A stretch of DNA of 64,000 bases from Nitrosospira sp. Nsp2 (GTDB lineage Bacteria > Pseudomonadota > Gammaproteobacteria > Burkholderiales > Nitrosomonadaceae), in the NCBI RefSeq assembly GCF_003050965.1, contig NZ_QAOU01000001.1:372001-436000 (forward strand). Reading direction: 5' to 3'. Numbering within the stretch: position 1 is the stretch's first letter; every line of letters starts with the position of its first letter. A program made the translations under genes and the position numbers. Under the pieces are notes generated by a model that was not told where the DNA came from, did not search any database, and was given only the letters and a program-made list of their open reading frames with translations. Below are positions 33,021 to 50,747 of this stretch, in pieces.

Positions 33021-35141
33021 TCAAGGTAGCTGTACCAGCATGGCCCCGCGTTTGGCGCGCGTTAACGCGACGTACAGCAGTTTGCGCTGGTTCTCGGTCT
33101 GCGTGGGGTCTCCCATATTATTCATGGGCGCAAGAACCACCACGCAGTCGAACTCCAACCCTTTGGCGCGATGCATCGTCGCCAGATGAACCACATTAAG
33201 GGCATCTGCGTGGTTGTTCTGAGCGTCAATCGTGACGCAGGCCAGGCCGGCGTTTTCAAGTTCGCGGCTCATGGCGTCACGCACCTTGCCGCTTGCGGTG
33301 ATCACGCAAAGAGACAGCGGCACAACGTCTGCCTGCTCGGTGCGCCACGCCTTGATAAAGTTCGTGGTTTCCTCCACTGCAGGCTTCAGACCGTCGACCT
33401 GGATCAATTTTGGCTCAGGCCCGTGTGATAGCGATTTATAGCGACTATTCTCGTCGCTGCCGCCATCCAGGTCGTCAATATCGCAGCCTTCGAGTAAGGC
33501 GACCGCCTGTCTGCGGATCTCGTCCGTTGTGCGGTAATTCAGATAGAGCTTGCGGGAGCGTCCCCGAATTTCAATTCCGCAACGACTCATTACTGCGCGA
33601 TTCCTGCTGTAAATACGCTGATGCCCATCGCCCACAAAGAACAGGTCGTTGCTGCCGGCAGGAATCATGGCGCGCAGAAGAGTCAGGGCTTGTGGGCCGA
33701 GGTCCTGAGTTTCGTCCACAACGATGGCGCTGTATGGAGGGGCGTGTGTCTCGGCGGCAGATGCGGACTCTGCCCCTAGCGTTTCTGCCACCTCACGGTA
33801 AGCATCATCGACCTCTTTGAGCTTTCGCGACGCCAATTGCCCACGATACTCTTCAAATACAGGCCAGACGGCATCACGTTTGGCACGATTAAGCACCACG
33901 CCACGCCCGGTACGACGCGCAACGCGGTATTGGGCAAGTGTTGTTATGCCTTGCGCAAGGACAACCTGCTCAAGCTCGTGCTCATAAAAATCGTCGGGCA
34001 GTTCGAGCCTGGAATCTTTGCTGGCAAGTGCCGACTCCCAGGCCTGCCGCGCTGCATCCCGCTTGCGGTCATAGACGATACGGTGCTCGAGCTTTCGGCC
34101 GCGAATAAATGCACCTACCCAAGCGTCAAGATTGCTAACCTCTATCTTGGCCATGGTTGCCGCACTGCATAAGGTACGCAGGTTATGCTTGATATCGGTG
34201 GCAAGATTCTTGGTGAAGGTCGTGAACAGCACCTTCTGGCCGTCGGGCGTCCTGTTCTCAGCCAGCCATCTGGCGCGATGGATAGCCAGCACTGTTTTTC
34301 CCGTGCCGGCTTGGCCCAATACCCGCATCGGGCCGCTGTGGTCGTCGGAAGCCAGTTTTTTTTGCGTCGGGTGTAAGAATACCCGCCATTGTGCAAGCGG
34401 CGCGTTCATAATGGTACGCATGGCTTCGTCGTCAGCCACAACTACAAAGCGTGACTGGGCCTCTGGGGTCTCTAGGCTGGCAGCAAAATTCTCGGCATCG
34501 ATAACCTGGTCGACTCGGGTCTCGCGGGCCATGAGTATCTGGCTGACCGTATCGCCGGCAACGACTAAAAACAGGCCTTCATATGCCTCTACAGGCAGGC
34601 TGAGTTGAATGGCATCCAGTTGCGCTTCGCTGGTGAGCCCACGAACCCTAGCAATTATCTCTTGTGGAACGCCCAGACTCATCAGCTCGTGGTCGGAGAG
34701 CTCCGCGAATAAAGGCCGCGCGTCCTGTGTAGCAGCAACGTACGCCGCGCTACCTTGTGCGACCGGATTTTGCGGTCGTTCCTCCTGCTGGATGACGTGT
34801 TCCAACACGACCAGCTGCATGGCGCCGGTGACGGGATTAATTGTGAGTCTTCGATTCTCTGCCCAGCGATAGGCGTCATCGTGGTGGTCAACGTACAGCA
34901 AAACATATACATCGCCTTTGGTTGGCTTGAACACAATACCGCGCCAATCGTTGTCCAAGCGGACGGACTTCAGATTGGGATCCCGGGCGCCATTGATATT
35001 CTCGTAGTTGATGCCGGGGCTGGTCGGGTCGGCTTGGAAGCGGGTGGCCCACTTCATCACCTTTGCATACACAGCGGCAGGCAGTTTTGCCAATTGACCC
35101 AGAAATTCCTGGGATAAGGCCACTTTTGGTTTGAAGGTCAC
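33021..35141 (-). CDS. UvrD/Rep-like helicase with RelE/ParE-like N-terminal domain
   Basis: Last gene of the defence operon, about 706 residues. Residues 1-110 (VALSQEFLGQLAKLPAAVYA, SVRLDNDWRGIVFKP, YVLLYVDHHDDAYRWA) have the helix-helix-sheet pattern of RelE/ParE toxins. A superfamily 1 helicase follows: Walker A VLGQAGTGKTVLAI (near 280), motif II VVDETQDLGPQALTLL (near 475) and motif VI LLYVALTRAKRGAML (near 687). I start it at GTG 35141 because AGGAG lies seven bases upstream, inside the end of the previous gene; an in-frame ATG at 35168 would overlap that gene. RelE-UvrD fusions occur as stand-alone proteins in some bacteria. Here the position implies a role as motor or effector of the defence system. 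Confidence 0.82.
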   Translation of the reverse strand: MTFKPKVALSQEFLGQLAKLPAAVYAKVMKWATRFQADPTSPGINYENINGARDPNLKSVRLDNDWRGIVFKPTKGDVYVLLYVDHHDDAYRWAENRRLTINPVTGAMQLVVLEHVIQQEERPQNPVAQGSAAYVAATQDARPLFAELSDHELMSLGVPQEIIARVRGLTSEAQLDAIQLSLPVEAYEGLFLVVAGDTVSQILMARETRVDQVIDAENFAASLETPEAQSRFVVVADDEAMRTIMNAPLAQWRVFLHPTQKKLASDDHSGPMRVLGQAGTGKTVLAIHRARWLAENRTPDGQKVLFTTFTKNLATDIKHNLRTLCSAATMAKIEVSNLDAWVGAFIRGRKLEHRIVYDRKRDAARQAWESALASKDSRLELPDDFYEHELEQVVLAQGITTLAQYRVARRTGRGVVLNRAKRDAVWPVFEEYRGQLASRKLKEVDDAYREVAETLGAESASAAETHAPPYSAIVVDETQDLGPQALTLLRAMIPAGSNDLFFVGDGHQRIYSRNRAVMSRCGIEIRGRSRKLYLNYRTTDEIRRQAVALLEGCDIDDLDGGSDENSRYKSLSHGPEPKLIQVDGLKPAVEETTNFIKAWRTEQADVVPLSLCVITASGKVRDAMSRELENAGLACVTIDAQNNHADALNVVHLATMHRAKGLEFDCVVVLAPMNNMGDPTQTENQRKLLYVALTRAKRGAMLVQLP

Positions 35142-35145
35142 GGCA

Positions 35146-38100
35146 TCACTCCTGAGTATCCAGTTCAAGTTCGAGCCCCAAGGCGGCGGCAGTGGCTACG
35201 AACCATGGTTGATTCTCGACTCGGATATGGGTTTCATCGAGCATCAAAATTGTCCACCCGGCTGTGTTCCAGATGCTGATCAGGTCTTCCTGATCCGGCC
35301 TAAGAATCACCAGTTGGGCCCGAGGCCAGGCCATTTCCGCATCTGCGACGACCTCGCCTTTGCCGTTGACCAGCTCCCACCCCACTTCGGGGATGACGGC
35401 ACCCGCACGTGCAAGCAGGGCCAGACCGGGCTTAAGCTCATCTAGCACCTGCTCTAACGCCTCCAGCCACGCCTGCTGCAAGGCAGCATGGTCGCCGGGG
35501 CGTACCGGCGCAGCGGCTTCTCCAGTTGTCATCACGCTCAAGCCATCGTAATCATGGGCATCCAGGCCTTCCGCAGTGGTTAACAACATACCCGGCAGGA
35601 CTTGCATTGCGTTGTACAGCTGCAGCCATCGGCGCCAAGACCTATGTAACACCTCTTCGTTCGGTGCGGCCGACCCGTCCAGCAGCACAACACCCGGTGC
35701 TGACCAGCGTTGAGCAGGAATGAGGCCTCCGGCCAGCGCCAGAGGCCAGTATCCAATCAGCAAGCAGGGGTCACCCGCCCTTGAGACACTTGGTGCGAAT
35801 CCCGTACCCGAAAAACCGGTCCCGGGCTCAACAACGCTCTCCGGCAACCGGGGCAACCAGCGTGTCAACTGCTGTTCACAGTCGGTCCTATCGGTCGGCG
35901 TTGAGGGCACGGAAAGGAAAGACAGCCACAAGGCATTGCGTTGCAATGGTTCTAGCGCAGCATCATTTTCTTGGCCCTCGCTGGCCGCCGCCAGCCACTG
36001 CAACAGGCGAGCCACGGCATGCTGGGTGTAGGCTTTTTCCTGTGCTCTGGGTACGGTGTTCGGTGCCCGGCTGCCGTCGTGGCGTGACATGGCCACCAAT
36101 GGCGATTCCAGGTCGGTTTCCAGTACGCCATCAAGCGCCGCCACGACATCTTGATGCGTTACCGACCACACCCAAAACGCACTACTGTTCACAATGGCGC
36201 TGCGTTTGCGCGCATCCTCGCTTATCTTATCCTTGTGATACACCCAGCCATCACAAAACACCGCAATGGGCCGGCGTCTCGAAGTCGCCGACCACGGCCA
36301 AATCATAAAATCCGGTTTGCTCCAAACCGACACGCCCTGGGCGGCGTCCAGCTCGCACTGAGGCTCAATGCGGTAGCGCTGTTTGCCCACCTCCAACACA
36401 TAGCCGGATTTTCCATTAACGATATCGGAAACCAGCTTGACGACGGGCAAGCCGCCGGTGCCCCCCAGGCGTTTCAGACTTTCGATGAATCTTGCTTCCA
36501 GCACGGAATCAAAATTCGGATTGATGTAGATATCCGATATGGTCTTGACCCGTTCCAGCTCGCCCAACGAATTCACCAAGTCTGTCATAACGGACTTTGC
36601 GGTATCGCGCGACACCAGTTCCATGTTGCGTCCCAGCCGGTACTGATACAGGCAGCGGTAGCAACCGTCCTTTTCGGGGTCGTGATTACAGCTGCATGTG
36701 GTGAGCGCATCAAGCGCCATCCGCAGAATATCCGCTAGGGTTTTCGCATCTTGCGCCAGCAACTGGTGCAAGTAGCCGGTGCCGCCGGGCACTGAATCGT
36801 AGAGCAACACATAGTGCTTGCGCGGGCCGCCATCCTTGCCGGGCTCGTCTTGCAGCACCATGCGCAGATGGTCCACTTTGCCGCCAAAGCGTTTTTTCAC
36901 GCCCAACTGCACCGCCGCCATGAACGACTGCACCACACGTTCGTCGACCCCATTTTTGGTGTAGGGCACGAGAATCCGCAGAGCCTCGGACTCGAACTCG
37001 CGATACAAGTACAGACAATCCAGCAAGTTGGCAGGGTCTTCGCTACCATGCTTAGGGCAATCAAAACTGTGGGTCTGCTCCTGGGCCTGGCCATTGCGAC
37101 GTATCGGTTTCTGAACCTTGCCGCAATGCCTACACAGACAAAATCCGGGCCGCGCCGACTCAACGTCGGCCACTTTGAAGGCTTCGCCTGGCTTGGCGAG
37201 CTCACCAAAATTGACATCCCGGAAGGTGACGCGGGAGATGAATTCAAAGCCGAACGGCAAGTCTCCCGAGGATATCTGCCAGGCTTCCCGGATGCTGGAG
37301 GGTAAAAAATCCGCCATCAACTGGCGCACATAGAATTTCGGCTCGCGGTCCTCAATCGTATCGTCGATGCGCACATCCGCATCATTGCTATTGGCAATCG
37401 CTTGCTTGAAGCGCAGCAGTGTGCGCTTCTGCGCGGCATCTGCCCACATCGCATCGCCGCAATGTGGGCAAACGGCGTGCTCGACCGGCTCCTTACCCAG
37501 ATGCTGCATGTGATGGCAGGCTGGACAAAAGCGCCAGTTCTCGGCCTGCGCCAGGTTCATATTGATTTGGTCAACCTGCACGCGGCGCTGATTGGCATAG
37601 AAGCGGTTTTCCGGTGCAAATTCAGACAAGGCAGACTGGGCGGGACGCTCGTACTTGAGCGTTTTTAAGGTGACATAGGCGCCCGAGCCCGGCTCGTCTG
37701 GTTCTCGCTTGCGCCACAACACCGATTTGAGCTCAATGCCCGCTTCAGGGAATGCGTAATTCGGAATCAAGCCGGCGTCCGTCAGGGTATTGAGCAAATC
37801 ACGTCCGTTGATTTCCTTGATGAGCTCCAGCATGGAATCGCGCTCGCGCATCAATTGGTCGCCTTCTGCCTGTGTGGCTTCATCCTGCGGCCTTTGCTTG
37901 AGCCTGGCGCGGACCTTGTCCAGCTCATCCTTGCGTTTCTTGTAGGTGCAGCGCTCCTCGACCAGTTCCTCCAGCACCTTGGTCAGGCGGGTACGCAGGC
38001 CGTCCCCTTCGCCTTGGCCCTGCATGGTGTTCCATAGGCGCTCGCGCACCCTGTCGGTTGCATCTTCGGCCAGCAAGGCCATGAACGCATCAAAAAGTCG

Positions 38101-41100
38101 CTGCTCATGCTCCAGCACATAGTCACAAAAGATATAAGGAAAACGGTCCCGACGGTCCTGTTGAACCGCATCAAGCGCCTGCGAGGTTTTTTGGGGCAAG
38201 GCAATCATATTGCTAAGACTCGCCGCCCAGTCGTCCATGCAGAATGCAAACAGCTGGCGACGAAGCACTTCAGCTGCCTGCAGGAAAATCCCTGGCGGGC
38301 TCACTTCGCCGGCAATCATCTCCTGGGTTTCGGAGAAAAAATACAGGTCGTGCGGGCTATTGCCATCGGCCAGCGTCGTGGCCACGGCATTGCCATCCAC
38401 ACGACCCGCGCGGCCTATCCGCTGCAGGAAGCTCGCCTGGGAGGGCGGCACCGAACACAACAAGACGGAGGACAGGTCGCCAATATCCACCCCCATTTCC
38501 AGAGTAGGCGTGGCTGACAGTAGGTTTTCAAACCAGGGTTTCGGATTTTTATCCTTGAAGCGCTGTTCTAACGCTTCGCGAGCGGTACGTTCAAGCAGGC
38601 CTGTGTGCTCCGCGGCAATTACCCGGCGCAAACTTCCCTGACTATAGCGATGGGCCCACCCGCCGTCGGTTTCGGGCACCCGTACTTCGTAAGTGGATTC
38701 CACGGCGTCCAGGCAGGGCATGCCGAGAAAATGCGCCACTTCGCTTCGTGGTACGGCAAGTCTGCGTTGACTACCAGGGGTGGCAACGAACGCAACATCG
38801 GTATCCAACTGCAAGGCATCCGGGTTTAGGGCCAAAGTGTCGCCCAAATGGTGCGCGGTCAGGACAAGAATACCGTCCGCCCGCAGAACTTCCAGCGCGA
38901 CCCGATACATGTCGCCCGTCATACCCGCTGCCAGCAAGGTTTGCTGGCCCAATACCCTATCCGCCCAGCGTTCATACCAGATGGCACGGCCGCGCTGAGT
39001 CAGTTTGTCAAACTCACGCTGCTTGCCCAGCGTCAGAAACACCGGCTTGGCGGTGTAATCGCCCATTACGGGCATCCAGCCGCCACGCCCGGCGCCCCTG
39101 AGTAGAGCATAAACATTCCCATCCCCGGCGTAGTTGGCAAGTTCCGGATGCATTACGCCACCCCGGCGGCGCATGTGGGTCAGCGTGCCCCATAACCACT
39201 GGGCTACGGTTTTCTGGTCCAGCCCGTGCGCACCAAATTGTTCTCGCAGTTTGGGGGTCAGGAATTCCGCCACCCTCATCAGACGCTCCCAAGGCACGGA
39301 TAAGGTTGCCTTGCCGATGCGCTCCAGCGTGCGGCCGCGCGTACTCAAATACGTCATTTCACTGACGGCTTGCCAAAGCAAACGCTTCTTGACCCTGCCC
39401 GGCAGGCGGCTACCCGCAGGCAGACGCAGGTGCTCAGGCAATTCCGTTGCCCAGTCACGCTGCCAGGTCATGTTCGGCCCGATGAATTCGGACACCAGCC
39501 TTTCATCATCCATGTGCAGCACAGAGCCAGGATGGTCGAACTGTGCTTTGGTGCGTGCCAGGAACTCCGACCAAGGCAACGGCACCTGGGCGACCTCGTC
39601 CATGACCTGGGCGAGCGCCATGCGGACGTTGTTCAGATAGGTGCGAGCACCGAAAAAGCCCGCACGGTGGGCGGCGTCCTGTACCGAATCGGAAAATGCA
39701 ATCAGCTTCTTGTCGTCGTTGAAGACGCTTGCCCAGGTGGCCTCGACCACTTGTGAGCCCAGCGTCGCATTGCGTGCGCCCAGCAAAAGGAGTGCATTGC
39801 GCTCGCCACAGGCAGGGCAGGTATTATCGTGTCGCGTAAACTGGGCTTGGCCAAATACTTGTGAGCGTTGTGCTGTTACCCTGAATATCGACAGCAGCTC
39901 CTGATGCCCGCAAGCGAGGCAAGCCCCATCGGTCGCCTGGAGATTGCCGCAAGCCCCACAGACGCGTTGCGTCACCCCGTCCACATGGGATTGTCTGACG
40001 CTGGAAGAGGCATAGAATCGTGCCACTTCGGGCCGCCCAGAAAACCAAGTGTTATAAATTTCGTCCAGTTTGGTCGACAGCTTGCTGGTGCCTTGCACCA
40101 GCCGAGATAACCACCCAGTAGTTCGGCACTGGGTACATTGCACCATCGGCAGATAGACGCCATCGCGCTGGCTGGGCAGGTCGCGTTCGCTACGCAGAAC
40201 GACATCGTCGGGCCGCATGCTTAACTTGCCGACCATGCGCCGCAGCTCGCGCACCCACAGTTGCATACGCAATGTCACTAGCGGCTGGTTTCCGTCGCGC
40301 AAGGCCCAGGCCACCAGCACCAGTAAGGCATCCAGCACTCGGCAAATCTGGGCGTCCGTCGCGGTGGGCATATTGCGGGCAAAAGCCTGTTTGAGTTCGG
40401 CGGCATCGACGACACCACCTTTCAAGTGCTTGAGCAGATTCACAAACAACTGATGCTGCTTGAGCCGCTGGCCTAGCACCTTGCGCCATGCCGGGTCTTT
40501 TACATCAACCGGCTCAGTTTCATTCGGGAAAAACAGGTCATACCAGTCTTGTACGGCCGCCTCGGGCGAAGCATAAAGACTGGGTTCCAGCCGCGTGGCC
40601 GCTTCGGGGCGAAACGGGAACATATAGTCCACCGTGGCATCTTCCAGAAAATCGCCCACACTTTGACGATTTTCAGTCACAACGGAGTCAGGTCCGAATG
40701 GCACCCCAAAAATCTGACGCGCATAATCGCGTAAAGGAGAGGAATCGGAGGCCCCACCCAAGGTTGCGGAAGTGCCCGCACATATCAGGTGGCCCGCGGG
40801 TGTTTTCAAACGCGCCCGCAAGCGCCGCAGCAACAAGGCCAGATCGGTGCCTTGTGCACCATCAAAGGTGTGTAGTTCGTCTACCACCACGTAACGCAGG
40901 GTCTCGGGCGTGTTCGCTGACCAAAGCTGACGGTCCTGGGGCCGTAGCATCAGGTAGTCAAGCATTTTGTAGTTGGTCAGCAAAATATCCGGCGGCTGCT
41001 TGCGCAAGGTATCGCGGTCAGAAATGACGTTGTCAGGCGTCATTACCATACCTGTGCCGGGCGCGTCTTGCCGGCCACCCACATACAGTCCAACACGCAA

Positions 41101-41574
41101 CTGAGAAAATGCTGGCACTGATGCAAGCAACTGCGCAATACGCTGCGCCTGGTCGCTGGCCAGCGCATTCAGCGGGTAGATGACCAGCGCCTTGATGCCG
41201 GCCTCACCCGTCGCGCGTACCCGAGCGCAATAGTCGAGCACGGGGTACAGAAAACACTCGGTTTTGCCGCTGCCCGTGCCGGTGGCAACCAGGGTGCTGG
41301 AGGCCATGTGCTGTGAGGACAGACGATTCCATGCCTGTTCCTGGTGGCTGTAACTGGGATACTGGGTCTCGAATGTAGAGAAGAACTTTCTGCCATGCGA
41401 ACCATCGACAAACGGCAGGCCGATTTGCACATAGGGGCCTTTGAGCCAGGTGGATTCATCCTCCACGAACCGGCTCATCAAGCCATGCATGAAGGCATCG
41501 GCCGGCTCAAAGCCAGCAATCAGAAACTGCTTGAGCCCGGTCCGGATGTCTTTGGTCAGGAGCGATGGTAGCAT
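35146..41574 (-). CDS. Giant YprA-type helicase with DUF1998 and putative nuclease domain (DrmA-DrmB/DruE-like)
   Basis: A 2142-residue superfamily 2 helicase. Walker A VATGTGSGKTECFLYPVL (near 100), DEAH-type motif II VVDELHTFDGAQGTDL (near 235), SATLGG (near 271) and motif VI FLQRIGRAGRVDGNAV (near 1053). Between the RecA lobes are zinc-binding Cys pairs (CTQC, CGAC…CLAC, CPAC). After them come FCPAC…VCPHC and CLCRHC. The DUF1998/MZB domain has YDSVPGGTGYLHQLL (near 1595) and the Cys cluster CSCNHDPEKDGCYRC (near 1631). Residues about 1690-1810 contain SKPDFMIWPW and IAVFCDGWVYHKDK, reminiscent of Vsr/PD-(D/E)XK nucleases. DISARM encodes DrmA and DrmB separately; Druantia DruE is a comparable single large protein. 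A C-terminal 300-residue tail is unassigned. No frame damage. Confidence 0.85.
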   Translation of the reverse strand: MLPSLLTKDIRTGLKQFLIAGFEPADAFMHGLMSRFVEDESTWLKGPYVQIGLPFVDGSHGRKFFSTFETQYPSYSHQEQAWNRLSSQHMASSTLVATGTGSGKTECFLYPVLDYCARVRATGEAGIKALVIYPLNALASDQAQRIAQLLASVPAFSQLRVGLYVGGRQDAPGTGMVMTPDNVISDRDTLRKQPPDILLTNYKMLDYLMLRPQDRQLWSANTPETLRYVVVDELHTFDGAQGTDLALLLRRLRARLKTPAGHLICAGTSATLGGASDSSPLRDYARQIFGVPFGPDSVVTENRQSVGDFLEDATVDYMFPFRPEAATRLEPSLYASPEAAVQDWYDLFFPNETEPVDVKDPAWRKVLGQRLKQHQLFVNLLKHLKGGVVDAAELKQAFARNMPTATDAQICRVLDALLVLVAWALRDGNQPLVTLRMQLWVRELRRMVGKLSMRPDDVVLRSERDLPSQRDGVYLPMVQCTQCRTTGWLSRLVQGTSKLSTKLDEIYNTWFSGRPEVARFYASSSVRQSHVDGVTQRVCGACGNLQATDGACLACGHQELLSIFRVTAQRSQVFGQAQFTRHDNTCPACGERNALLLLGARNATLGSQVVEATWASVFNDDKKLIAFSDSVQDAAHRAGFFGARTYLNNVRMALAQVMDEVAQVPLPWSEFLARTKAQFDHPGSVLHMDDERLVSEFIGPNMTWQRDWATELPEHLRLPAGSRLPGRVKKRLLWQAVSEMTYLSTRGRTLERIGKATLSVPWERLMRVAEFLTPKLREQFGAHGLDQKTVAQWLWGTLTHMRRRGGVMHPELANYAGDGNVYALLRGAGRGGWMPVMGDYTAKPVFLTLGKQREFDKLTQRGRAIWYERWADRVLGQQTLLAAGMTGDMYRVALEVLRADGILVLTAHHLGDTLALNPDALQLDTDVAFVATPGSQRRLAVPRSEVAHFLGMPCLDAVESTYEVRVPETDGGWAHRYSQGSLRRVIAAEHTGLLERTAREALEQRFKDKNPKPWFENLLSATPTLEMGVDIGDLSSVLLCSVPPSQASFLQRIGRAGRVDGNAVATTLADGNSPHDLYFFSETQEMIAGEVSPPGIFLQAAEVLRRQLFAFCMDDWAASLSNMIALPQKTSQALDAVQQDRRDRFPYIFCDYVLEHEQRLFDAFMALLAEDATDRVRERLWNTMQGQGEGDGLRTRLTKVLEELVEERCTYKKRKDELDKVRARLKQRPQDEATQAEGDQLMRERDSMLELIKEINGRDLLNTLTDAGLIPNYAFPEAGIELKSVLWRKREPDEPGSGAYVTLKTLKYERPAQSALSEFAPENRFYANQRRVQVDQINMNLAQAENWRFCPACHHMQHLGKEPVEHAVCPHCGDAMWADAAQKRTLLRFKQAIANSNDADVRIDDTIEDREPKFYVRQLMADFLPSSIREAWQISSGDLPFGFEFISRVTFRDVNFGELAKPGEAFKVADVESARPGFCLCRHCGKVQKPIRRNGQAQEQTHSFDCPKHGSEDPANLLDCLYLYREFESEALRILVPYTKNGVDERVVQSFMAAVQLGVKKRFGGKVDHLRMVLQDEPGKDGGPRKHYVLLYDSVPGGTGYLHQLLAQDAKTLADILRMALDALTTCSCNHDPEKDGCYRCLYQYRLGRNMELVSRDTAKSVMTDLVNSLGELERVKTISDIYINPNFDSVLEARFIESLKRLGGTGGLPVVKLVSDIVNGKSGYVLEVGKQRYRIEPQCELDAAQGVSVWSKPDFMIWPWSATSRRRPIAVFCDGWVYHKDKISEDARKRSAIVNSSAFWVWSVTHQDVVAALDGVLETDLESPLVAMSRHDGSRAPNTVPRAQEKAYTQHAVARLLQWLAAASEGQENDAALEPLQRNALWLSFLSVPSTPTDRTDCEQQLTRWLPRLPESVVEPGTGFSGTGFAPSVSRAGDPCLLIGYWPLALAGGLIPAQRWSAPGVVLLDGSAAPNEEVLHRSWRRWLQLYNAMQVLPGMLLTTAEGLDAHDYDGLSVMTTGEAAAPVRPGDHAALQQAWLEALEQVLDELKPGLALLARAGAVIPEVGWELVNGKGEVVADAEMAWPRAQLVILRPDQEDLISIWNTAGWTILMLDETHIRVENQPWFVATAAALGLELELDTQE

Positions 41575-41660
41575 GGGATAACGTCTCTAAAACTCAGATA
41601 TCAACGCGACATTTCACGGTGAAAGCCTCTTTCCGAAGAGAAATGAGTGTTATTCAGCAA

Positions 41661-42626
41661 TCAGTTCTTACGGTTTTTCAATGCTTCGCTAGACACCCGC
41701 CATACGATTGGGGTCATGAACTCCGCAGCAATCTTCTTCATAGGTTCTGAAATACGCTCCACCATCACGCCGCTACCCTCAGGCTTAACAAGAACCCGAT
41801 ATAGCCATCCTTTTCCGCCTAGGCTCGCCAATACCTTCCGTTCGTTATCGGTAATGTAGAAATCGCTGTCTGAAACGGTTGTGCTTTTCACTTCAATACA
41901 GCGCTCCTGGCCTGGCCACGTGGATTCAATGTCGTAACCGCGAGCCACATCAGTCAGGGCAACTCGATTGACGTACTGCTGAGGGTCGGGGCATCCGCAT
42001 TCGCGTAAACGTTCAAGCTCATCCAACACCACCAACAACTCACCAGCTTGTCCCACTTCGGAATTGCGCTGCAACTGATTTTGCAGCTCTTCAGCGGATA
42101 CCGGCGCCACTTTGTGTTCAGCTGCTTGCCCATGTGTGGGTAAGCTCGGGTCCACGATAACCTGACCATTCTGTTGCGGTGCAACGCCTAAATACACTGC
42201 CAACAAGTCACCGATGTGTCGTGTTCGTGGAATAACTTGTAGCAAGGGATTGCCCGGCGAGGGGTTAAGAAAAGGCGCGTGGTGCCCCAGCACACTACTC
42301 CTAACACCTTTTTTTGGGTCGGTATGAGTCGCTTCAACGATTGCGAGGCCGTCAATTAAGGTTTCAAGCTCTTTTCCATCCAGAGTCTTTCCACGCATCA
42401 AGAAGCAAATTTTCCCTTGATTCATGGGAACGGCTATCTGGGCGTCTTGATAGTCCGGAAAAGTGAATATCCATGTCGTCGACTTTTTATTGTTTTCCTT
42501 GTCACGGCCAGAGTCGTGCGTCAGTGAAGCGCCGAACTGCTGCTCAATGACATTAATAGCATCCCAAATTTTCTGCGCAACATTTGACAAGGGCCGCTTC
42601 GGTATAGCCGTTAATTGGACAGTCAC
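41661..42626 (-). CDS. DUF3883-domain protein
   Basis: A 321-residue protein whose C-terminal half is a DUF3883 domain: SEVGQAGELLVVLDELERL, then ARGYDIESTWPGQERCIEVK with the Asp/Glu-x-Lys pattern of PD-(D/E)XK enzymes (near residue 242), and FYITDNERKVLASLGGKGWL. DUF3883 is common in helicase-, methylase- and restriction-linked defence proteins and is believed to be nuclease-like. The N-terminal 150 residues (SNVAQKIWDAINVIEQQFGA, WIFTFPDYQDAQIAV) are unfamiliar. It lies between the methyltransferase (28 bases before) and the giant helicase (86 bases after) on the same strand, so it is a component of the same system. Confidence 0.8.
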   Translation of the reverse strand: MTVQLTAIPKRPLSNVAQKIWDAINVIEQQFGASLTHDSGRDKENNKKSTTWIFTFPDYQDAQIAVPMNQGKICFLMRGKTLDGKELETLIDGLAIVEATHTDPKKGVRSSVLGHHAPFLNPSPGNPLLQVIPRTRHIGDLLAVYLGVAPQQNGQVIVDPSLPTHGQAAEHKVAPVSAEELQNQLQRNSEVGQAGELLVVLDELERLRECGCPDPQQYVNRVALTDVARGYDIESTWPGQERCIEVKSTTVSDSDFYITDNERKVLASLGGKGWLYRVLVKPEGSGVMVERISEPMKKIAAEFMTPIVWRVSSEALKNRKN

Positions 42627-42654
42627 TCAAATATCTCCTGAGTTAATTATTTTG

Positions 42655-45600
42655 CTATTCATTGCCAAAATGCCTCCATGCAATTTGGTAGTCCTCTTCA
42701 CGGTCAGCGCGAGCGAATGGAGCGACATAGCGGCGCTCCACGGTACGGGGACCGCCCGGTAAGGTGTCGTCCTTGACCCATTCCGTCACTACCGCTCCGT
42801 CAGGAACCAGCCATTCATCGTTTTTGCAGAGGTCTTCCCAGCCAAAGTTGCCTTCGCGGGTATTGCCATCTGGCGTCTGAATGCGGGTACGTGAGGTGGT
42901 TCGACTGCCTTTTCGGGGCAGCCCAACACCTACCAAGCCCTTGCTGTTGGTGAACACAATACGACCATTTATGTCGTACCAGGTATCGCGCTCGTAGCCC
43001 TGCATCACTGGGAACTGGACGCGGTAGATGAGCAGAAGCTCATCGAGTGTAAGACCCAATTCCTGGGCGACGAGCACATCGATTTCCACCAAAGCCATGC
43101 GACGCGCGTAGTTGCTACGTAGGGCGGATTCGCGCGTCCAGGTACCAGTGAGGTTTTGCCAGAAGTCCTGCGGAAGACGGGGGTTGCTTGGTTGGCTCCA
43201 TGCCTGCTCGGCGAAACACATGTCAAAAGTTTCCTCCCATAAAACGGAATAATGGGAAGTAACGGCTATAAGCGACAGATATCGAGCAGAAATTCCCGAG
43301 CCTTCAAGTATTGGCAGTTTGTCAGCAAGGTCTCCTCTAAAGTCTGCTTTACCCGAAATTTTTACCAAAAAATCAAAGGGAATAGATACTGCTCCCGAAG
43401 AAAAAGACACAAGATTCTTTGGGTCTTTAAAGGCTATCGAAAAACAACCATCAATATGGGCAACTTCAGGCGGGGCAATAATTCCAATAGCTGTGCGTTC
43501 CATTGAAATGCTAATAGCTCGCCGATGGACGTGTCTAAAATACTCTGTCACGGCCTTCGGGGCGGTCTCTCCTTCCCCTACCCAACTGACCTTTGGCGTG
43601 CGGCGCAAGTATTTGGCGCGGTCGGCCATAGGCAGGTAATTAGTACGCGGCAGATAATCATCAGGCAGCATTTCGAGTTCTATGACGTCGTAGTGTCCTT
43701 TTTCGGTGCATACCTTTCGTGGAGTTTTGTTGAATGGATTCGCCACAAAAAAATGCGGACCGGACAATACCCATTCCTCCAGCGTAGCAGCAAAACCAGC
43801 AACGCTTGCAGGACGACGACTGATGGTTCCGTCTCGTTGTGCGTACGTTTCATCAAACATGACTGTAGAAAAATACTCGTCTCCCAGGTCTGCCAGCCGC
43901 CGCGGATAAGCAGCAAGTTTGGCCAGGACGCTGCTTAATGCTCCAGCATGCAAAGCGGGCAACCGCGCGCGGTGTGCTGGTGTGTCGGGTTCATCGTAAA
44001 GCTGAGCAAAGGTCGCTAGAGCTTTATCATTGACATGCACAATCCGGTCTTGATGTCCGTTCGTGTTCCATTTTCCATCGTCCTTCTTGATTCCGCCGGG
44101 CAAGCCAGTACCGTCATGCTGATAAGAAGCGTCAACCGTGGCGGGTACAAAGAGGTTTGCAATATTGTCGAAATCAACGAACGGCCTCAAAGCACCGTAC
44201 ACATTGATGCTGTATTTAACCCGGTGTCCGATGGGGAATAGCATTTCTTGATTTTGGAACTGGAAATGCCGACGCAAACGGCCATACATAGCCTCGCGTA
44301 AGGCTCCGCCCTTAGGGTCATCATAGGGCCCTTCTGGGTGCAGCAGTCCCGTCACACCTTCTGGACTATTTAGCCTCCAAGCCAATGGCATGAAGCATTT
44401 GTACAAATTGGTTTGTACACCTTTCAGCAGCGGATAGTTCTGTACGGCATTCAGGAAGCTCTGAGTACCTTCGGCCTCCTGCAACTCATCCGTCCAGGCT
44501 TCCTGCACTCCGTAGAATTCCTCGAAAGCGTCGGCTCGCAGCCTTGCCAAGTCGCTTGCGCTGATGTTGCGCACTGCAAACACCGGATTGTATTCACCCA
44601 AGACGCCGGACTCGTTCCACTCCACCTTCAACCAGGGCGGATTTCCCAGTATCACGTCAAATCCGTCGTGCTGCAGTAACACATCGGCAAAGCACAGTTC
44701 CCAGTGCATGAAGCGGCGCGCCTCGGCCACGGCTTCGACTTGTGCGACACGCGGAAAATGCTGGCGTAATTTACTTATACGCAACTGACCCAGCGTATCG
44801 TGCAAGCGGACGTGGTCATCGGCCCGGGCGCGCAAGGTGAGCTGGACATCGAAGCCCGAGAAGCTGGGCTGGTTTGGCTCAAACCCTGAGGGTTTGTCAT
44901 TGCCGACAACTTGTCCAGTCTCCGAAAAACCCAAGTCCAGCCCCGCTTGCTGCGTCATATCGACTACATTGCCTTCAAGGATGGCACCAAGCTCCATCCA
45001 CCACGCTTCGCGACTGGGCAGGTGCTGGCTGGCTGTGATGGGCCAGAACCACAGGGTGCACCAATAATCCATGACGAGCTTCAGGCGCCGGAATGGCGTG
45101 GCAAGGTCGCCATCTTCGTTTAACAAGCCTTGCCGGCGTATGGCTTCCTTTTGAGCCCGATTGATGCGGTGCGTATCATCTGAAACGTCGTTATCTGGCT
45201 GCGGCCAGACAGTCGATATGTCTTCGGTGCGTCTCCGATCACGCGCCAGCGCCCGGGTGTGTTCCTGCCATAACTCCTGCACCCGCCTGCTGAGCTGCTG
45301 CAGGCGGGCAATTTCATAATCGGACAAGGGCGCGGTAAACGCTTTGCGCCAGCCCTTGAGTCTTTCAAAATCCTGCGGATACAGGGCTTTGGCCGTCTTG
45401 TCGGTGTGGTTGGCCATGCCGGGGTCGGGCAACAGGAAGTGCCAGATTTCGTCGGCGCTGCGGGGTTGCTCTGCCGTGACCGAGCGCGGCGGCTCTTGAT
45501 GCCAGGCGGGTTTGGCCCCTTTTAGCAGGCTGCCGGCACGGTACACCTGGTGGCGCGCACCTATCAGGCTATTTCCGGCAAATAACTGATAACCAAACCA

Positions 45601-47736
45601 CGGCACCCTGGCGGACTTAGGTTGACCATTGGCGTCCGTCTCGCCATAAATGGCATTTAGCCACAGTGACACCTCGGCAAGTTCCACGGCCACGGGATTC
45701 AGGTCTACGCCAAAAACATTCCGGTCAGCCAGGTACATCCGCACCTTCTGCAGTTCATGGGGGTAGTCCTCATGCGGGATGCGGCGCCCCAGCTCTGCCT
45801 GCTTGCGCTCCAGGTAGGCTTCGGCCAGTTGATTAACACCTTCGTTCAAGAATGCGGCACTGCCCATGGCCGGCTCGCACACTGTCACGCTCAGGATATC
45901 GTCCGCCTTCTTGACCCGACCGCCTTCGAGCAGCTCCTTCAGTGCATACTTGACCAAGCACTGGGTAAGTACCTGCGGAGTGTAGTAGCTGGCGCTTTTC
46001 TGCCGGTCGCGCCCGGCCAGGCGGTAAATGAAGCGCCCGCGTTCATGCTTCCGCAGCACCAAGTGGCCGGCGTCATTGCGGTCATAGACTCGTTCGTCCT
46101 CACGGTATTCATCCAGGCGGCTGGCAGGTATGAACCAGGCGCTGTCCAACAAATCCGCTGAGGCGCTCGAGGCCTGGCTTGATGAACTGCCCCTTTCTGG
46201 TGCCATGTCATCGCTATCGTCATCCTCGTTGCTGTCGTCATCGTCGGACGCCGTTACCGCCTTTGCTCTCTTAGGTGCCGGTTGTACCTCGTATAAATCT
46301 TCTGCTGCAAAAAAGCCGCGATAGCTCAACAAGGCTTCGTAGACCGCACCCAATTGGTTGATGGACAACAACTGGTAGCTCACACGCCCCCTGCGCTGAC
46401 CCCGGCCTTGGCCTCGGGTCAGGGACATCAGGCGGATGATGCGCTGCCAGATATGATTTGGAAACCGAACTTTGTGCAACAGCGGCATAGTGCTGTCGTC
46501 AAACAGGCGGCTATCCAGTGGCGCCAGCGCAAAAACGTCCTTCGCGCCCGCCGTGCTCACGCCCAATTCGCGTTGCGTGGTTTCACCAAGGCCACAGCCC
46601 GTGGCAACCAGGCCAAAAAGCTGCCGCAATGTGGTGTCGAAATACAGGCCATTGTGTGCGCTGGGTGTGGTGAGGGGCTGCATTTCCAGGTCGCGCAGGC
46701 TTTCCAGGCTGTACCCCTTCTGGTAGACCTCGCTTTTTGCAATGGGCACATAGGACAGCTCTGGACGCGCCTCTATATAGAACATGAAGAGCAGCCGGTA
46801 CGCCATGCGCAAGCATTCCATGCTGAGCTCATCGGCATCAAGCTGGTCTTTTCCACTGAAAAAGCCTTTTTTGGCGTTTGCCGCCTGTTGGCGCAGCTGG
46901 CGTGCCGCTTCATTACCCAAGAGTTCAATCGCTTCACGCAGGGCGTATTTCAGGTCTTCACTGACCCCAAAGGCGTGCTTGTGAGCGTTCTCATCCAGAG
47001 ATTGCAGCAGGCTGTCGCCCGCGCCCGGTGCAAGGCTGTCCTTGTGCAGAAACACCGCGCAAGCCTTGAGCGTGTCGGCATCCTTACGGTCAAGGATTTT
47101 CGCCCAATTAAAGCGTAGTGCTCGGTTATTGGGCCATTTGTAGCGGTCAATCAGCAGCCACTCGTCCAGGCCTACCAGCACCACATATCGCGGTGCGGAT
47201 TCTGCGGCGAACACCGCGTCGGAGAGCAGGTCGGCCCAGGTTTCATTCTTCAAAGCGTTGGGAATGGGCTCATCCCCATAGAGAAGGCCAGCCAGAGTGT
47301 GGTCGAGCAAGTCTTCTTGTTCTGCACCCGGAAGATAGGCGGGAATGACCGCCAAGCCGGGTAGCTGCAGAGTCCACAACGGAATGGACAAGCCCGGCAC
47401 TAGCTCATGGCGCCGCGGTAAAGCCGCAGGTTTCGTGTAGCCCAGCGCTTGCAGCAAACCTGCCTGTATCTCGGTAAACAATTGCCAGCGATGCTTGTCG
47501 TCGCCCGCCCGGTGGACTTGGCTGTGCAGGCTAAACCACTTCTGGGCCCAGGTTTGCAGGCGCTTGTACGGAGCACGATGTGTTTCATCACCGGTATGCT
47601 CGGTCTCATCGGCTTCCCAAGCATCGAGCTTGTCCTTGATATCGCCCTTGAATACCTCAGCGAGGTAGTGATGGCTATAGAACTCATTTTCATTGGTGAT
47701 ACCGGCGAAGGTCTGAACCTCTTCCAAAATAGCCAT
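42655..47736 (-). CDS. Eco57I-type class I DNA adenine methyltransferase (DrmMI/PglX-like)
   Basis: A 1693-residue protein with a gamma-class N6-adenine methyltransferase core: SAM motif VCEPAMGSAAFLNEGVNQL (near 619), ADRNVFGVDLNPVAVELAEV, and catalytic FDVILGNPPWLKVEW (near 1032). The N-terminal 600 residues and C-terminal 500 residues are helix-rich specificity or partner-binding regions; an acidic linker (DDDSNEDDDSDD) interrupts near 520. Size and layout match methylases of DISARM class 1 and BREX more than ordinary type II enzymes, so it probably marks host DNA as self. The start MAILEEVQTF (47736) lies two bases after the stop of the SNF2 gene; the frame is open 32 codons further but would overlap it. 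Translational coupling is likely. Confidence 0.87.
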   Translation of the reverse strand: MAILEEVQTFAGITNENEFYSHHYLAEVFKGDIKDKLDAWEADETEHTGDETHRAPYKRLQTWAQKWFSLHSQVHRAGDDKHRWQLFTEIQAGLLQALGYTKPAALPRRHELVPGLSIPLWTLQLPGLAVIPAYLPGAEQEDLLDHTLAGLLYGDEPIPNALKNETWADLLSDAVFAAESAPRYVVLVGLDEWLLIDRYKWPNNRALRFNWAKILDRKDADTLKACAVFLHKDSLAPGAGDSLLQSLDENAHKHAFGVSEDLKYALREAIELLGNEAARQLRQQAANAKKGFFSGKDQLDADELSMECLRMAYRLLFMFYIEARPELSYVPIAKSEVYQKGYSLESLRDLEMQPLTTPSAHNGLYFDTTLRQLFGLVATGCGLGETTQRELGVSTAGAKDVFALAPLDSRLFDDSTMPLLHKVRFPNHIWQRIIRLMSLTRGQGRGQRRGRVSYQLLSINQLGAVYEALLSYRGFFAAEDLYEVQPAPKRAKAVTASDDDDSNEDDDSDDMAPERGSSSSQASSASADLLDSAWFIPASRLDEYREDERVYDRNDAGHLVLRKHERGRFIYRLAGRDRQKSASYYTPQVLTQCLVKYALKELLEGGRVKKADDILSVTVCEPAMGSAAFLNEGVNQLAEAYLERKQAELGRRIPHEDYPHELQKVRMYLADRNVFGVDLNPVAVELAEVSLWLNAIYGETDANGQPKSARVPWFGYQLFAGNSLIGARHQVYRAGSLLKGAKPAWHQEPPRSVTAEQPRSADEIWHFLLPDPGMANHTDKTAKALYPQDFERLKGWRKAFTAPLSDYEIARLQQLSRRVQELWQEHTRALARDRRRTEDISTVWPQPDNDVSDDTHRINRAQKEAIRRQGLLNEDGDLATPFRRLKLVMDYWCTLWFWPITASQHLPSREAWWMELGAILEGNVVDMTQQAGLDLGFSETGQVVGNDKPSGFEPNQPSFSGFDVQLTLRARADDHVRLHDTLGQLRISKLRQHFPRVAQVEAVAEARRFMHWELCFADVLLQHDGFDVILGNPPWLKVEWNESGVLGEYNPVFAVRNISASDLARLRADAFEEFYGVQEAWTDELQEAEGTQSFLNAVQNYPLLKGVQTNLYKCFMPLAWRLNSPEGVTGLLHPEGPYDDPKGGALREAMYGRLRRHFQFQNQEMLFPIGHRVKYSINVYGALRPFVDFDNIANLFVPATVDASYQHDGTGLPGGIKKDDGKWNTNGHQDRIVHVNDKALATFAQLYDEPDTPAHRARLPALHAGALSSVLAKLAAYPRRLADLGDEYFSTVMFDETYAQRDGTISRRPASVAGFAATLEEWVLSGPHFFVANPFNKTPRKVCTEKGHYDVIELEMLPDDYLPRTNYLPMADRAKYLRRTPKVSWVGEGETAPKAVTEYFRHVHRRAISISMERTAIGIIAPPEVAHIDGCFSIAFKDPKNLVSFSSGAVSIPFDFLVKISGKADFRGDLADKLPILEGSGISARYLSLIAVTSHYSVLWEETFDMCFAEQAWSQPSNPRLPQDFWQNLTGTWTRESALRSNYARRMALVEIDVLVAQELGLTLDELLLIYRVQFPVMQGYERDTWYDINGRIVFTNSKGLVGVGLPRKGSRTTSRTRIQTPDGNTREGNFGWEDLCKNDEWLVPDGAVVTEWVKDDTLPGGPRTVERRYVAPFARADREEDYQIAWRHFGNE

Positions 47737-47738
47737 GG

Positions 47739-50700
47739 TCAGGCTCGCGCGAGAGAGGTTTGAGGATGGCACACGGCGGCTAGTACCTGTATCCAAGGCT
47801 GTGGCTCGGTCGACAAAGTGTCGTGCACCCACTGACGATAGTCATCAAAGACGCGGCTGATTTGCTGGCTGCGTTGCTCGAAGCGGCCGCGCCTGACAGT
47901 TTCCAGCTGCGTTTGCAGACTGAGCTCAAGCTGTTCCATCTGCCGGCCTTGCAAGCGCTGCAGTTCCTGAAGTGTGCCCGCCAGCCGCTGCTCAAGCGCT
48001 GCAGAAAAAGACGCCTGCTTATCGAGCATATGGACTCGCATCATTTGAGCGGCATTCGGCAATGCCTGCTGCATGGAGTCAATCACGTTATCAAGCTCTG
48101 CGGAGTATCCTCGGTTGGGCAGGCCCCCCGCCTTGATGCCGATGCGTGCGGCGAAGGAATCGAAGGGTTCCAGCGAAAAATCGCCCTGGGCTCGGCGACA
48201 TGCCACCTGCCATTCCACCAGCATAGACTGGCCCTTGCGGTTGGGCACCAGCCCCATCAAAACAATGGCTTGCTCGTCAGGCTGCATGGCGGCGCTTTGC
48301 AGCAGCGGTGCTTTGTGGCGACCGAAATGCGTCAGTACGCGCTCGCCCAGCCACTCCATGATGGGGTGCTGCGGCCACAGGTAATGCAACTGGGGCCAGG
48401 ACTCTTCTTCGGCCTTTGCCTGGCGTGCGGCCTCGATGGCTTCGGCCATGCGCTGCGGGTTGGTGGTCAGCGAATAATGGTCATTGGCAGCCTGAACCTC
48501 GCCCGGCAATTGGCGCAGGCGCTCTTGCAAGTCGGGCGGCGCCGTCAGGGCAATGACCTGTTCGGCGTCTTCTGCCGACCACTGGCACAGCAACTGGCCG
48601 TGGTTCAACAGGGTCAACGCGGTTTTGGCGTAATGATAGTCGTTGGTGAACAAGGAGGTGGGTTCGTCTATGTCAGCCAGGCTATTACCTGGTTTGTCGG
48701 TTTTCGCCCCGGACGCAGCAACGTCGTCCTGCACGAGGTTACTTGTATCATCCCCTCCGAACAACTGCATGAGCCAATCGCCCTCGTTGCTGTCCTCTAT
48801 GCTGGCGGCCTCGTCCATATCCGCTTCGACTTGTTCAGGCGTCAGGCCGCTGGCCATGAACTCGCTGACTTTTGCTTCTTCTTTGTCGGGGTCAAAGACA
48901 TTCAGGAAGGCGGAAGGGTCACCCAGATTCAGCAGCGCCTGCTCATCCTTCTTTTCAAGGATTTCAAGAATACGGAAGTCACCACGGATTTTCTCGTTGA
49001 CGGTCTCCGTGAATAGATAAACGATGTGTGGCTGATGCGCTTGACCATATCGGTCAACTCGGCCATTACGCTGCTGAAACACCATCAGAGACCACGGCAA
49101 GTCAAAATGCACCAGTCGATGGCAGAAGTAATGCAAGTTCAGGCCTTCACTGGCTACATCCGAGCACAGCAGCACACGCACGGGGTCGTTAAGGCGCCCG
49201 AAGCATTCCACCAGCTCCTGCTGTTCGGTATCCGCCATCTGGCCATGCAGCACTTCAATTTGATTGGATTTGAGGTGCAGGTCGGCGCTAAGCTGTTCCC
49301 GCAGCCAATGCAGGGTTTCGATACGCTCGGAAAAAATCACCAGCCGGTCCGCAGCGTCAGATGTGGCCCATGCAAACTCAGCCGAGCGCAGATGCGTGAG
49401 CATACGTTGGTACTTGCTGAAGCTCGCCGCATCAGGCTCATCCGAGAGAGTCTGCAAAGCGTTAACCAAATCCCGCAAGCCCCACGCCTCGGCAAGCTCG
49501 TCATCGCTTGGAGTGTGCTTGCCCTGTAGCAGGGCTATTCGCTTTTTCGTCGACTCAAGCGCCGCCGCCGGGCTGGAGAACAGCGTTTTTTGCAATCCCA
49601 CCCGCTGCAACTCGTTTTGCTGGCCCGGCTTGTGCTCGCCCCGCTGTGTGAAAGGCACGGCAAGCAAGGCTAGGTAAACCCCTTCTTCAGCAGCACTTGC
49701 TTGCGTATGCAACCGTGTGGTGTGACGCTCCTTGAACTCGCCCGCGACTTGGTCGCGAATATCTTTCTTGAAGCGACGAATCACCAGGCCCTTGCTGCGG
49801 AAATCGACCGGAGTGTAATCATCCGGGTCGGAAATAGCTGTAGGGTCGAGCAAGCTCATCAGCGAGGCAAAGCTTCGTGCTGAGCCGTCGTGCGGCGTGG
49901 CCGAGAGCAGCATCAGGGTGTCGGAACGCGTCGCCAGCAAGCGAGCCAAGCGTGCGCGCCGGGACAACCCTGTTTCACTCGCACGCGCGGCAACATTGTG
50001 ACACTCGTCGATAACGATAATGTCCCACCACGCATTTTCCAAATAGTTGCGATACTCTAGATTACTCTTGAGGGTATCGATGGAAATGATGCTGCGGTCG
50101 AAATAATTGAAGGGGTTGTGATTTGCAGGGATGCGGTTGCGCACACGCGCAAGGCCCACTGAATCTAGGCGAACCAGCGGAATCGAAAAACGACTCCACC
50201 ATTCTTTTTGGAACTGCGTCAGCATTGCCTTCGTGGTGACGACCAAAATACGCTTGCCGCGACCGCGCTGAATTAGCTCTGTGGCCAACACGCCGGCCTC
50301 CAGCGTTTTACCCAAGCCCACGGCGTCTGCAATCAGAATACGCGAACGCGTTTGCCGTAAGGCCTGCAACGCAGGGTCCAGCTGGTAGGGCATCAAATTC
50401 ATCACCCCGCGATGACCAAGATGGATACTTTCATCATTGGGGACGCTGCGCCGTCGCAGGCTTTCAAGGTAGAGAATGGATGCGCTATAGGTCGGACTTT
50501 CGTCGGGCACGAGCCGGGTTGCACCCGGGTCGAGCACCTCTATTTCATCTTCAAGCTGTGTTAGGAACAGTGTCGAGCGCCCGCGCACCAGTTCAGACAC
50601 CCCATCGCAGGTCAGCAGGCGACCGCCATCAGCAGAGGGGTCAACGCGGCGAATAAGCCACTCTTCGTCGCGGATAACGACACGAGCACCGGGGCCAAGC

Positions 50701-50747
50701 AGAAGCATGAGGGGAGTAAATCCTTGAGCGAATACTCCCACCAGCAC
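47739..50747 (-). CDS. SNF2-family helicase (DISARM DrmD-like)
   Basis: First gene of the defence operon, 1002 residues. Superfamily 2 motifs: Walker A LIADAVGLGKTLEAG (near 142), motif II IIVIDECHNVAARA (near 249), motif III LLSATPHDG (near 282), and motif VI FQQRNGRVDRYGQAHQP (near 562). VVTTKAMLTQFQKEWW and SIISIDTLKSN are typical of the Swi2/Snf2 group found in class 1 DISARM next to an adenine methylase. The C-terminal 350 residues are helical (MEQLELSLQTQLETVRRGRF) and probably regulatory. The start is unclear: the longest frame begins with GTG 50747 without ribosome binding site. ATG 50708 (MLLLGPGARVVIRDEEW) fits the family better and has AAGGA 12 bases upstream. Confidence 0.87.
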   Translation of the reverse strand: MLVGVFAQGFTPLMLLLGPGARVVIRDEEWLIRRVDPSADGGRLLTCDGVSELVRGRSTLFLTQLEDEIEVLDPGATRLVPDESPTYSASILYLESLRRRSVPNDESIHLGHRGVMNLMPYQLDPALQALRQTRSRILIADAVGLGKTLEAGVLATELIQRGRGKRILVVTTKAMLTQFQKEWWSRFSIPLVRLDSVGLARVRNRIPANHNPFNYFDRSIISIDTLKSNLEYRNYLENAWWDIIVIDECHNVAARASETGLSRRARLARLLATRSDTLMLLSATPHDGSARSFASLMSLLDPTAISDPDDYTPVDFRSKGLVIRRFKKDIRDQVAGEFKERHTTRLHTQASAAEEGVYLALLAVPFTQRGEHKPGQQNELQRVGLQKTLFSSPAAALESTKKRIALLQGKHTPSDDELAEAWGLRDLVNALQTLSDEPDAASFSKYQRMLTHLRSAEFAWATSDAADRLVIFSERIETLHWLREQLSADLHLKSNQIEVLHGQMADTEQQELVECFGRLNDPVRVLLCSDVASEGLNLHYFCHRLVHFDLPWSLMVFQQRNGRVDRYGQAHQPHIVYLFTETVNEKIRGDFRILEILEKKDEQALLNLGDPSAFLNVFDPDKEEAKVSEFMASGLTPEQVEADMDEAASIEDSNEGDWLMQLFGGDDTSNLVQDDVAASGAKTDKPGNSLADIDEPTSLFTNDYHYAKTALTLLNHGQLLCQWSAEDAEQVIALTAPPDLQERLRQLPGEVQAANDHYSLTTNPQRMAEAIEAARQAKAEEESWPQLHYLWPQHPIMEWLGERVLTHFGRHKAPLLQSAAMQPDEQAIVLMGLVPNRKGQSMLVEWQVACRRAQGDFSLEPFDSFAARIGIKAGGLPNRGYSAELDNVIDSMQQALPNAAQMMRVHMLDKQASFSAALEQRLAGTLQELQRLQGRQMEQLELSLQTQLETVRRGRFEQRSQQISRVFDDYRQWVHDTLSTEPQPWIQVLAAVCHPQTSLARA

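Follow-up and report, generated by a model that had tools for sequence, protein, structure and literature searches.

On the minus strand of a 64,000-nucleotide stretch of Nitrosospira sp. Nsp2 (contig NZ_QAOU01000001.1, positions 372,001 to 436,000; hereafter the window), five real, uninterrupted open reading frames (ORFs) lie in a tight array. Comparison of the encoded proteins leaves hardly any doubt that four of them are armA, armB, armC and armD of the defence system ARMADA type II, a core system that is already known since 2025. The remaining gene, which encodes a protein with a DUF3883 (NOV_C) domain, is, judged by the related loci, an occupant of a variable slot between armB and armC and not a fixed ARMADA subunit. 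We put the probability of the whole reading, that of an ARMADA II operon whose armB-armC slot here carries a DUF3883/NOV_C nuclease-like second layer, at roughly 0.6. The slot is well supported as a genomic fact; its function, and with it the functional coupling of the cargo to ARMADA, we infer. The genes are arranged as follows:

armA: 47739..50747, minus strand, 1002 aa, BrxHII/RapA-like SNF2 helicase
armB: 42655..47736, minus strand, 1693 aa (start MAILEEV), adenine methylase with an NPPW motif
armB-armC cargo slot: 41575..42654, unstranded, 1080 bp from the armB stop to the armC start, with one gene inside
NOV_C/DUF3883 slot gene: 41661..42626, minus strand, 321 aa, predicted PD-(D/E)xK nuclease (E203, D232, E245-x-K247)
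armC: 35146..41574, minus strand, 2142 aa, YprA-family helicase (DEAD, Helicase_C, MZB) with a C-terminal Vsr-like site
armD: 33021..35141, minus strand, GTG start at 35141, UvrD helicase with a RelE-like domain (label from the main text of Bell et al.; PMC12458937)

Identity of the core operon

All five genes proposed in an earlier, sequence-only reading of the window are open, and its labels (SNF2, Eco57I methylase, DUF3883, YprA-type helicase and UvrD) are backed by Pfam. The matches are SNF2/ResIII/Helicase_C in ArmA, Eco57I in ArmB, DEAD, Helicase_C and MZB within a single 2142-aa protein in ArmC, UvrD in ArmD and, in the fifth protein, NOV_C (E = 3.8e-10), which is the Pfam name for DUF3883. 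MZB we take to be the MrfA Zn-binding domain, formerly DUF1998. The intergenic gaps of 2, 28, 86 and 4 bases were reproduced, the last of these with the GTG start of armD. A TTG start at 35168, called mechanically, is also open and gives a protein of 715 aa, with armD then overlapping armC by 23 bases; the GTG codon at 35141 is preferred, since the alignment of relatives begins about there.

ARMADA type II was described by Bell et al. (bioRxiv, September 2025; PMC12458937). According to the main text of that paper, armA encodes a BrxHII/RapA-like protein, armB a PglX-like methylase, armC a YprA helicase with a C-terminal Vsr-type nuclease and armD a RelE-like domain joined to a GajB-like UvrD helicase. 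The E. coli cluster gave direct, non-abortive protection against 13 of 80 phages, for which each of the four genes was required. Eight residues were mutated (ArmA K136 and D236, ArmB G605 and N971, ArmC K110 and D234, ArmD K266 and D454), and six of the mutations abolished protection while two partly reduced it (PMC12458937). All eight residues are conserved in the window proteins, where K147 and D247 of ArmA correspond to E. coli K136/D236 and G625 and N1032 of ArmB to G605/N971. A copy on an E. coli plasmid (L004; loci carry L numbers throughout) has the eight residues at exactly the published numbers and the same gene order as the window, with identities to the four core window proteins of 49, 54, 38 and 44%. 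The order in the window, BrxHII-like helicase, methylase, YprA-like helicase and UvrD helicase, matches that of ARMADA II. With the system of Bell et al. the window thus has in common the four genes, their order, the eight residues, the Vsr-like nuclease of ArmC and the N-terminal extension of ArmD; it differs in the additional NOV_C gene between armB and armC (PMC12458937, main text).

The suggestion of the sequence-only reading that the operon may equal a recently described YprA-helicase system was therefore borne out by order, families and residues. Of the two parts which it regarded as additional, the DUF3883 gene is indeed extra, whereas the RelE-UvrD gene is armD, a standard part of ARMADA. 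Assignment to a named defence type likewise succeeds for the four genes and fails for the DUF3883 gene.

In ArmC, the residues E1693, D1755, D1775, H1780 and D1787 are invariant across 6 aligned sequences and presumably represent the catalytic residues of a Vsr fold; a PDB sequence-profile search with the ArmC C-terminus returned no relative. In all 13 aligned proteins, the N-terminus of ArmD forms a conserved domain, about 110 aa long. Pfam found no RelE family in ArmD at E <= 0.01, and the N-terminal profile gave weak matches in the PDB, the best at E = 0.0094 (a Dot/Icm substrate chain) and one at E = 0.39 to 1wmi_A, which we take to be RelE. For these reasons the label "RelE-like" rests on Bell et al. 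(PMC12458937, main text).

The sequence-only reading had described the array as an anti-phage operon related to DISARM but distinct from both classical DISARM and Druantia, and as such the description holds. Its more specific proposal, a divergent class 1 DISARM in which drmA and drmB are fused and drmC is lost, is in our opinion extremely improbable. In PADLOC, ArmA does score best with DrmD models (BrxHI/BrxHII ranking third), and ArmB matches DrmMI, after type IIG enzymes as the best hits and with PglX at only 2.6e-5; for ArmD the best model is C3a187 NERD+UvrD, with GajB third. Yet the DrmD score of ArmA, 337 bits, is below the NCBIfam cut-off of 610, ArmC scores best with DruE models and not with DrmA, the operon is without a DrmB or DrmC gene, and both architecture and residues fit ARMADA II. 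Instead of the separate drmA and drmB of class 1 DISARM, the operon has DEAD, Helicase_C and MZB in one protein, and this protein is not best seen as a drmA/drmB fusion: it is the armC of ARMADA II as given in the main text of Bell et al. (PMC12458937). The absence of drmC is real, Pfam finding no PLD/drmC match among the five operon proteins, but the nuclease role is not simply lost, as ArmC has its own Vsr-like nuclease. As to Druantia, in which DruE occurs together with partner proteins, none of the remaining operon proteins hit a Druantia model among its best matches (at most 25 per protein). Because of the low DrmD score, the lack of drmC in the operon, the best match of ArmC to DruE and the matching residues, the four genes are assigned to ARMADA II.

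The armB-armC junction in related loci

Comparison across loci identifies the armB-armC junction, with a confidence bordering on certainty, as a real cargo slot. The comparison comprised 96 loci: 80 from species genomes, 5 from plasmids, 10 from an even draw by class and phylum, and the window. The 80 species loci are the best of at least 498 confirmed ones, ranked by likeness to the window ArmC, and are weighted to the relatives of the window; the even draw took 10 of 13 non-window matches. With distances measured from true stop codons, the armB-armC junction was evaluable in 72 of the 96 loci (9 of them from the even draw), the other 24 being dropped as there was no armB 3' end on the stretch. 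L102, from the even draw, is identical in sequence to L085, and neither enters this count. The gap exceeds 150 bp in 48 of the 72 loci, the window included; 46 of the wide gaps measure at least 630 bp, two measure 151 and 193 bp, and the maximum is 9566 bp. The other 24 junctions are closed (gap <= 66 bp). Gaps of more than 150 bp were found at the armA-armB junction in 3 of 51 loci and at the armC-armD junction in 3 of 88, and of the 9 evaluable loci of the even draw 5 have a filled armB-armC junction. E. coli keeps the junction closed: with a 4-kb query across it, 471 of 519 matching genomes had 80% or more of the query at a single place. Among the 60 matches listed, 56 cover the whole query in about 4.0 kb, three are partial and one, which contains an IS3 element, extends over 5.3 kb. 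Five loci (L057, L061, L063, L070 and L072) have ArmC and ArmD with no armB found within 8.5-12 kb upstream, and there either the cargo is very long or armAB has been lost.

The main text of Bell et al. calls the gene order strict and mentions neither DUF3883 nor NOV_C (PMC12458937). In the window the order is interrupted by the NOV_C gene, and strict order appears too narrow a trait for the ARMADA II family. Annotation rules that insist on the four core genes in unbroken succession would overlook some two thirds of the loci studied here (48/72; even draw 5/9). A description of the slot was not found in the available text of the ARMADA literature (PMC12458937, PMC13192584 and PMC12904381); the supplements of Bell et al. 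may list slot genes.

Exchange of the cargo takes place at one precise point. In a filled/empty pair from Nostoc, 96.8% identity over 16.3 kb begins exactly at codon 1 of armC, and on the other side 91.6% identity over 10 kb reaches up to armB; in one locus armB and armC overlap (ATGA), and in the other they are separated by a 630-bp interval with one gene of 185-188 aa. This gene was considered as another NOV_C and rejected, having no PADLOC match and 17% identity. In six further differently filled pairs homology stops near the armB stop, and in all seven (Nostoc and the six) it resumes 0-18 bp before the armC start. The window behaves in the same way: relative to L043, the nearest relative among the loci compared (ArmC 82% identical over 1208 columns), homology ends at 42667 and resumes at 41576, 2 bp before the armC start, and the slot of L043 contains an unrelated 240-aa gene (7025-7747). 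One of the six pairs, L011/L049, has a short stretch of cargo in common, and in the pair L012/L028, where the cargo is the same, the alignment runs through the slot. Several empty junctions are overlapped (ATGA or TGATG-type), and the junction is therefore not simply loose.

On the ArmC tree (72 rows; FastTree only, with long-branch warnings) the label filled or empty changes at least 17 times, where "filled" means more than 150 bp and so includes L076 and L086; 15 of the changes are forced by starred branches. Shuffled labels gave a mean of 20.3 changes, with 28 of 500 shuffles as low as observed.

A novel system made up of all five genes was rejected, as NOV_C is replaced by an unrelated gene in L043. 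What recurs in other genomes is the order of the four-gene core, with the armB 3' end and armC in 72 of 96 loci; the fifth gene recurs in 1 of the 95 other loci screened. That locus, from Paucibacter (L027), has a full-length homologue (38% identity) in the same slot, with a further slot gene beside it. Together with the tight spacing of 28 and 86 bases, it would fit NOV_C being a true fifth ARMADA subunit in this lineage, for example a DNA-cleaving partner of ArmC. We consider this quite improbable, given the unrelated slot gene of L043 and a NOV_C homologue of 35% identity on a Hydrogenophaga plasmid (L111), which has an ABC-three component system as its neighbour and, within the 33 kb shown, no annotated ARMADA gene. 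Moreover, the five nuclease residues of ArmC itself are intact in 67 of the 72 loci, the window included. This holds for all 24 closed loci and for 43 of the 48 with a wide gap, on which ground NOV_C as a substitute for a lost ArmC nuclease was rejected as well; among the five exceptions, the contig stops within armC in L043, L044 and L067, and L029 and L034 appear to be frameshifted.

The NOV_C protein of the variable slot is probably a nuclease. Its residues E203, D232, E245 and K247 are invariant in 10 homologues and correspond to the PD-(D/E)xK pattern, and DUF3883 has been termed a novel restriction endonuclease (REase) domain (PMC3710099, available text). Because of this invariant motif and the REase-domain precedent, a nuclease that would add a further layer is the favoured role, yet unproven. 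In viral contigs no match to NOV_C was confirmed.

Slot contents and their possible role

A Pfam scan was carried out on 46 slot ORFs, picked for size and spread and not randomly; 31 of them, 27 of 40 in one set and 4 of 6 in another, have a match at E <= 0.001, in some cases below Pfam's own cut-off. Four slots (L048, L049, L071 from Amphritea and L078 from Mangrovimicrobium) contain ZorA2-ZorB2-ZorE2 according to PADLOC, which is a complete Zorya II system, and they occupy three places on the ArmC tree (L048; L049; a clade of L071 and L078). The slot of L087 holds GajA and GajB (PADLOC) together with a Schlafen-like gene that is 89% identical to that of L081. Other cargo includes:

SIR2: L028, with a 94% identical copy in L012
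GmrSD: L029 and L048
AbiE-type: L039, L053 and L069
RloB: L062
NERD-kinase-helicase: L011
helicase-PLD: L059
HEPN-SNF2 and sacsin: L021
HATPase: L067
dynamins: L071 and L104
patatin: L071
HipA: L104
RhuM: L023
PLD: L046

In addition, a family of about 240 aa is found in five slots (L016, L024, L043, L044 and L046). Neither Pfam nor PADLOC matched the one member that was scanned, the AlphaFold model for the family (predicted local-distance difference test, pLDDT, 68.3) has no PDB match at E <= 0.001, and plasmids yielded no match. Two weak partial matches were found in 399 genomes of the order, with no ARMADA genes beside them on the short stretches examined.

We lean slightly towards the view that the cargo would form a second layer, expressed together with the core. 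Among slot ORFs no shorter than 150 aa, 96 of 111 are co-directional with the operon and 15 are antisense, as against 82 and 59 beyond armD in the same loci (n = 141; Fisher p = 7.7e-7 relative to the slot). At least one co-directional ORF of this size is present in 40 of the 48 wide gaps, and in several loci the first or last cargo gene overlaps armB or armC by 4 bases. The slot could also be a merely tolerated insertion point, with armAB and armCD as two units, no functional coupling, and a content explained by location in a defence island. The marked excess of co-directional ORFs over the flank beyond armD, the 4-base overlaps, the turnover of cargo at one precise point and the overlapped empty junctions make this rather unlikely, while the occurrence of antisense cargo and of a glutathione S-transferase, the 24 closed junctions among 72 and the situation in class 1 DISARM speak for it.

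Class 1 DISARM resembles ARMADA II in the order of SNF2 helicase, methylase and YprA-family helicase and in having genes at the methylase-drmA junction. Twelve stretches (L114-L125) were used as DISARM comparators, the plasmid loci being the best 8 of 85 records with a match; 9 of the 12 have drmD, methylase and drmA on the same stretch and are evaluable. At least one gene lies between methylase and drmA in five of the nine (L114, L118, L119, L122 and L125), and none in L115, L121, L123 and L124. Three genes at this junction are antisense in L125 and two in L119. Unlike ARMADA, DISARM has separate drmA, drmB and drmC, and it has genes at other junctions too (L118, L119 and L120). The slot may therefore predate ARMADA II; alternatively, the junction may just tolerate insertions. 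In L114 (where, as in L115, genes were labelled from DrmD score, size, motif and Pfam) an IS66 transposase gene breaks up the methylase gene, and the gene directly before drmA (reverse complement, 9180-12362) encodes a protein of 1060 aa that weakly matches reverse transcriptases.

A number of further observations weigh against a defensive, co-expressed second layer. ARMADA II of E. coli functions with a closed junction (for the function: PMC12458937, main text), and consequently cargo is not needed. The two shortest wide gaps, 151 bp in L076 and 193 bp in L086, are too short for a gene; in these two loci, as in L030 and L052, no slot ORF of at least 150 aa was picked. Eight of the 48 wide gaps are without a co-directional ORF of this size, and all ORFs picked in L050, L055, L058 and L083 are antisense; some of the 15 antisense ORFs among the 111 may be spurious, because ORFs were picked mechanically. 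No Pfam match was obtained for 15 of the 46 scanned ORFs, and the glutathione S-transferase, in the slot of L049, argues against purely defensive cargo. As ARMADA sits in defence islands, defence genes nearby are to be expected, and the tally covers cargo genes only. For NOV_C, the AlphaFold model built from two sequences had a pLDDT of 45.5, too poor for a fold search, and a sequence-profile search of the PDB gave no relative. A scan of the window slot for promoters and terminators gave nothing above shuffles, and no recombinase or repeat that explains the slot was identified, junction repeats not having been searched systematically.

As a possible mechanism, ArmB would mark or read host DNA, ArmA and ArmC would move on incoming DNA, and the ArmC nuclease would cut it. 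The slot gene would be transcribed together with ARMADA and add a second layer, in the window a PD-(D/E)xK nuclease that would cut phage DNA escaping or disabling the core, and elsewhere sometimes a complete second system. Cargo would be swapped through recombination within the conserved flanks that armB and armC provide. More speculatively, and with the odds somewhat against it, the methylase/YprA-helicase junction of ARMADA II, perhaps of class 1 DISARM too, may be an evolved docking site. At this one precise point, core operons would serve as platforms that have time and again taken up whole defence systems from elsewhere (Zorya II, Gabija, AbiE, SIR2, nucleases), which would be co-expressed with the core and triggered as a second layer when it is evaded.

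There are precedents for nested effectors. BREX operons carry auxiliary or backup nucleases (GmrSD, OLD/TOPRIM, Schlafen and PD-(D/E)xK), and so likewise have extra effectors inside a methylase-based core defence operon (PMC12839542). Their core genes are different, and the main text, which makes no mention of ARMADA, DISARM or YprA, deals chiefly with effectors that are nucleases, PARIS and Gabija modules among them (PMC12839542), whereas in the ARMADA loci the site is always the same junction and complete Zorya II is found there as well. In EcoprrI, prrC lies within a type IC restriction-modification operon, again a second-layer effector embedded in a restriction operon (PMC3874165, available text). 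There, one gene is coupled to one restriction-modification complex, whereas the ARMADA slot has many unrelated cargoes with a presumed coupling. Zorya, Druantia and ARMADA share E. coli islands, and in the main text of Bell et al. they are not described as nested (PMC12458937). The Zorya II systems nested in ARMADA II in four loci would offer natural pairs for testing synergy between defence systems. If the slot is confirmed, the armB-armC interval would be a ready-made place to find new defence genes, the ~240-aa family included.

Surroundings in the window

Upstream of armA, a divergent McrBC-like pair is encoded (52058-55569, plus strand), consisting of an AAA_5 and EVE protein and a McrC-like protein; it is a candidate second restriction system. 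Between armA and this pair, ARAGORN called a 70-nt tRNA-Arg (cct; 51131-51200, minus strand), which may be a remnant or a false call. Beyond the pair lies a tyrosine integrase gene with an Arm-DNA-bind_3 domain (57187-58635, minus strand), whose presence suggests that the defence genes belong to an integrated element or lie close to one; scanning 28500-64000 for direct repeats revealed no evident attachment sites.

At the other end of the window, satellite/phage-like genes (7630-11523, plus strand), encoding a DUF927-Toprim primase-like protein and a small terminase, are located 1.6 kb downstream of a tRNA-Arg gene. A reverse transcriptase of 323 aa with an RVT_N domain follows on the minus strand (12127-13098), possibly group II intron-like or a remnant. 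Finally, degenerate tandem repeats with a 9/18-nt spacing are present at 59866-60232, within overlapping ORFs of both strands.

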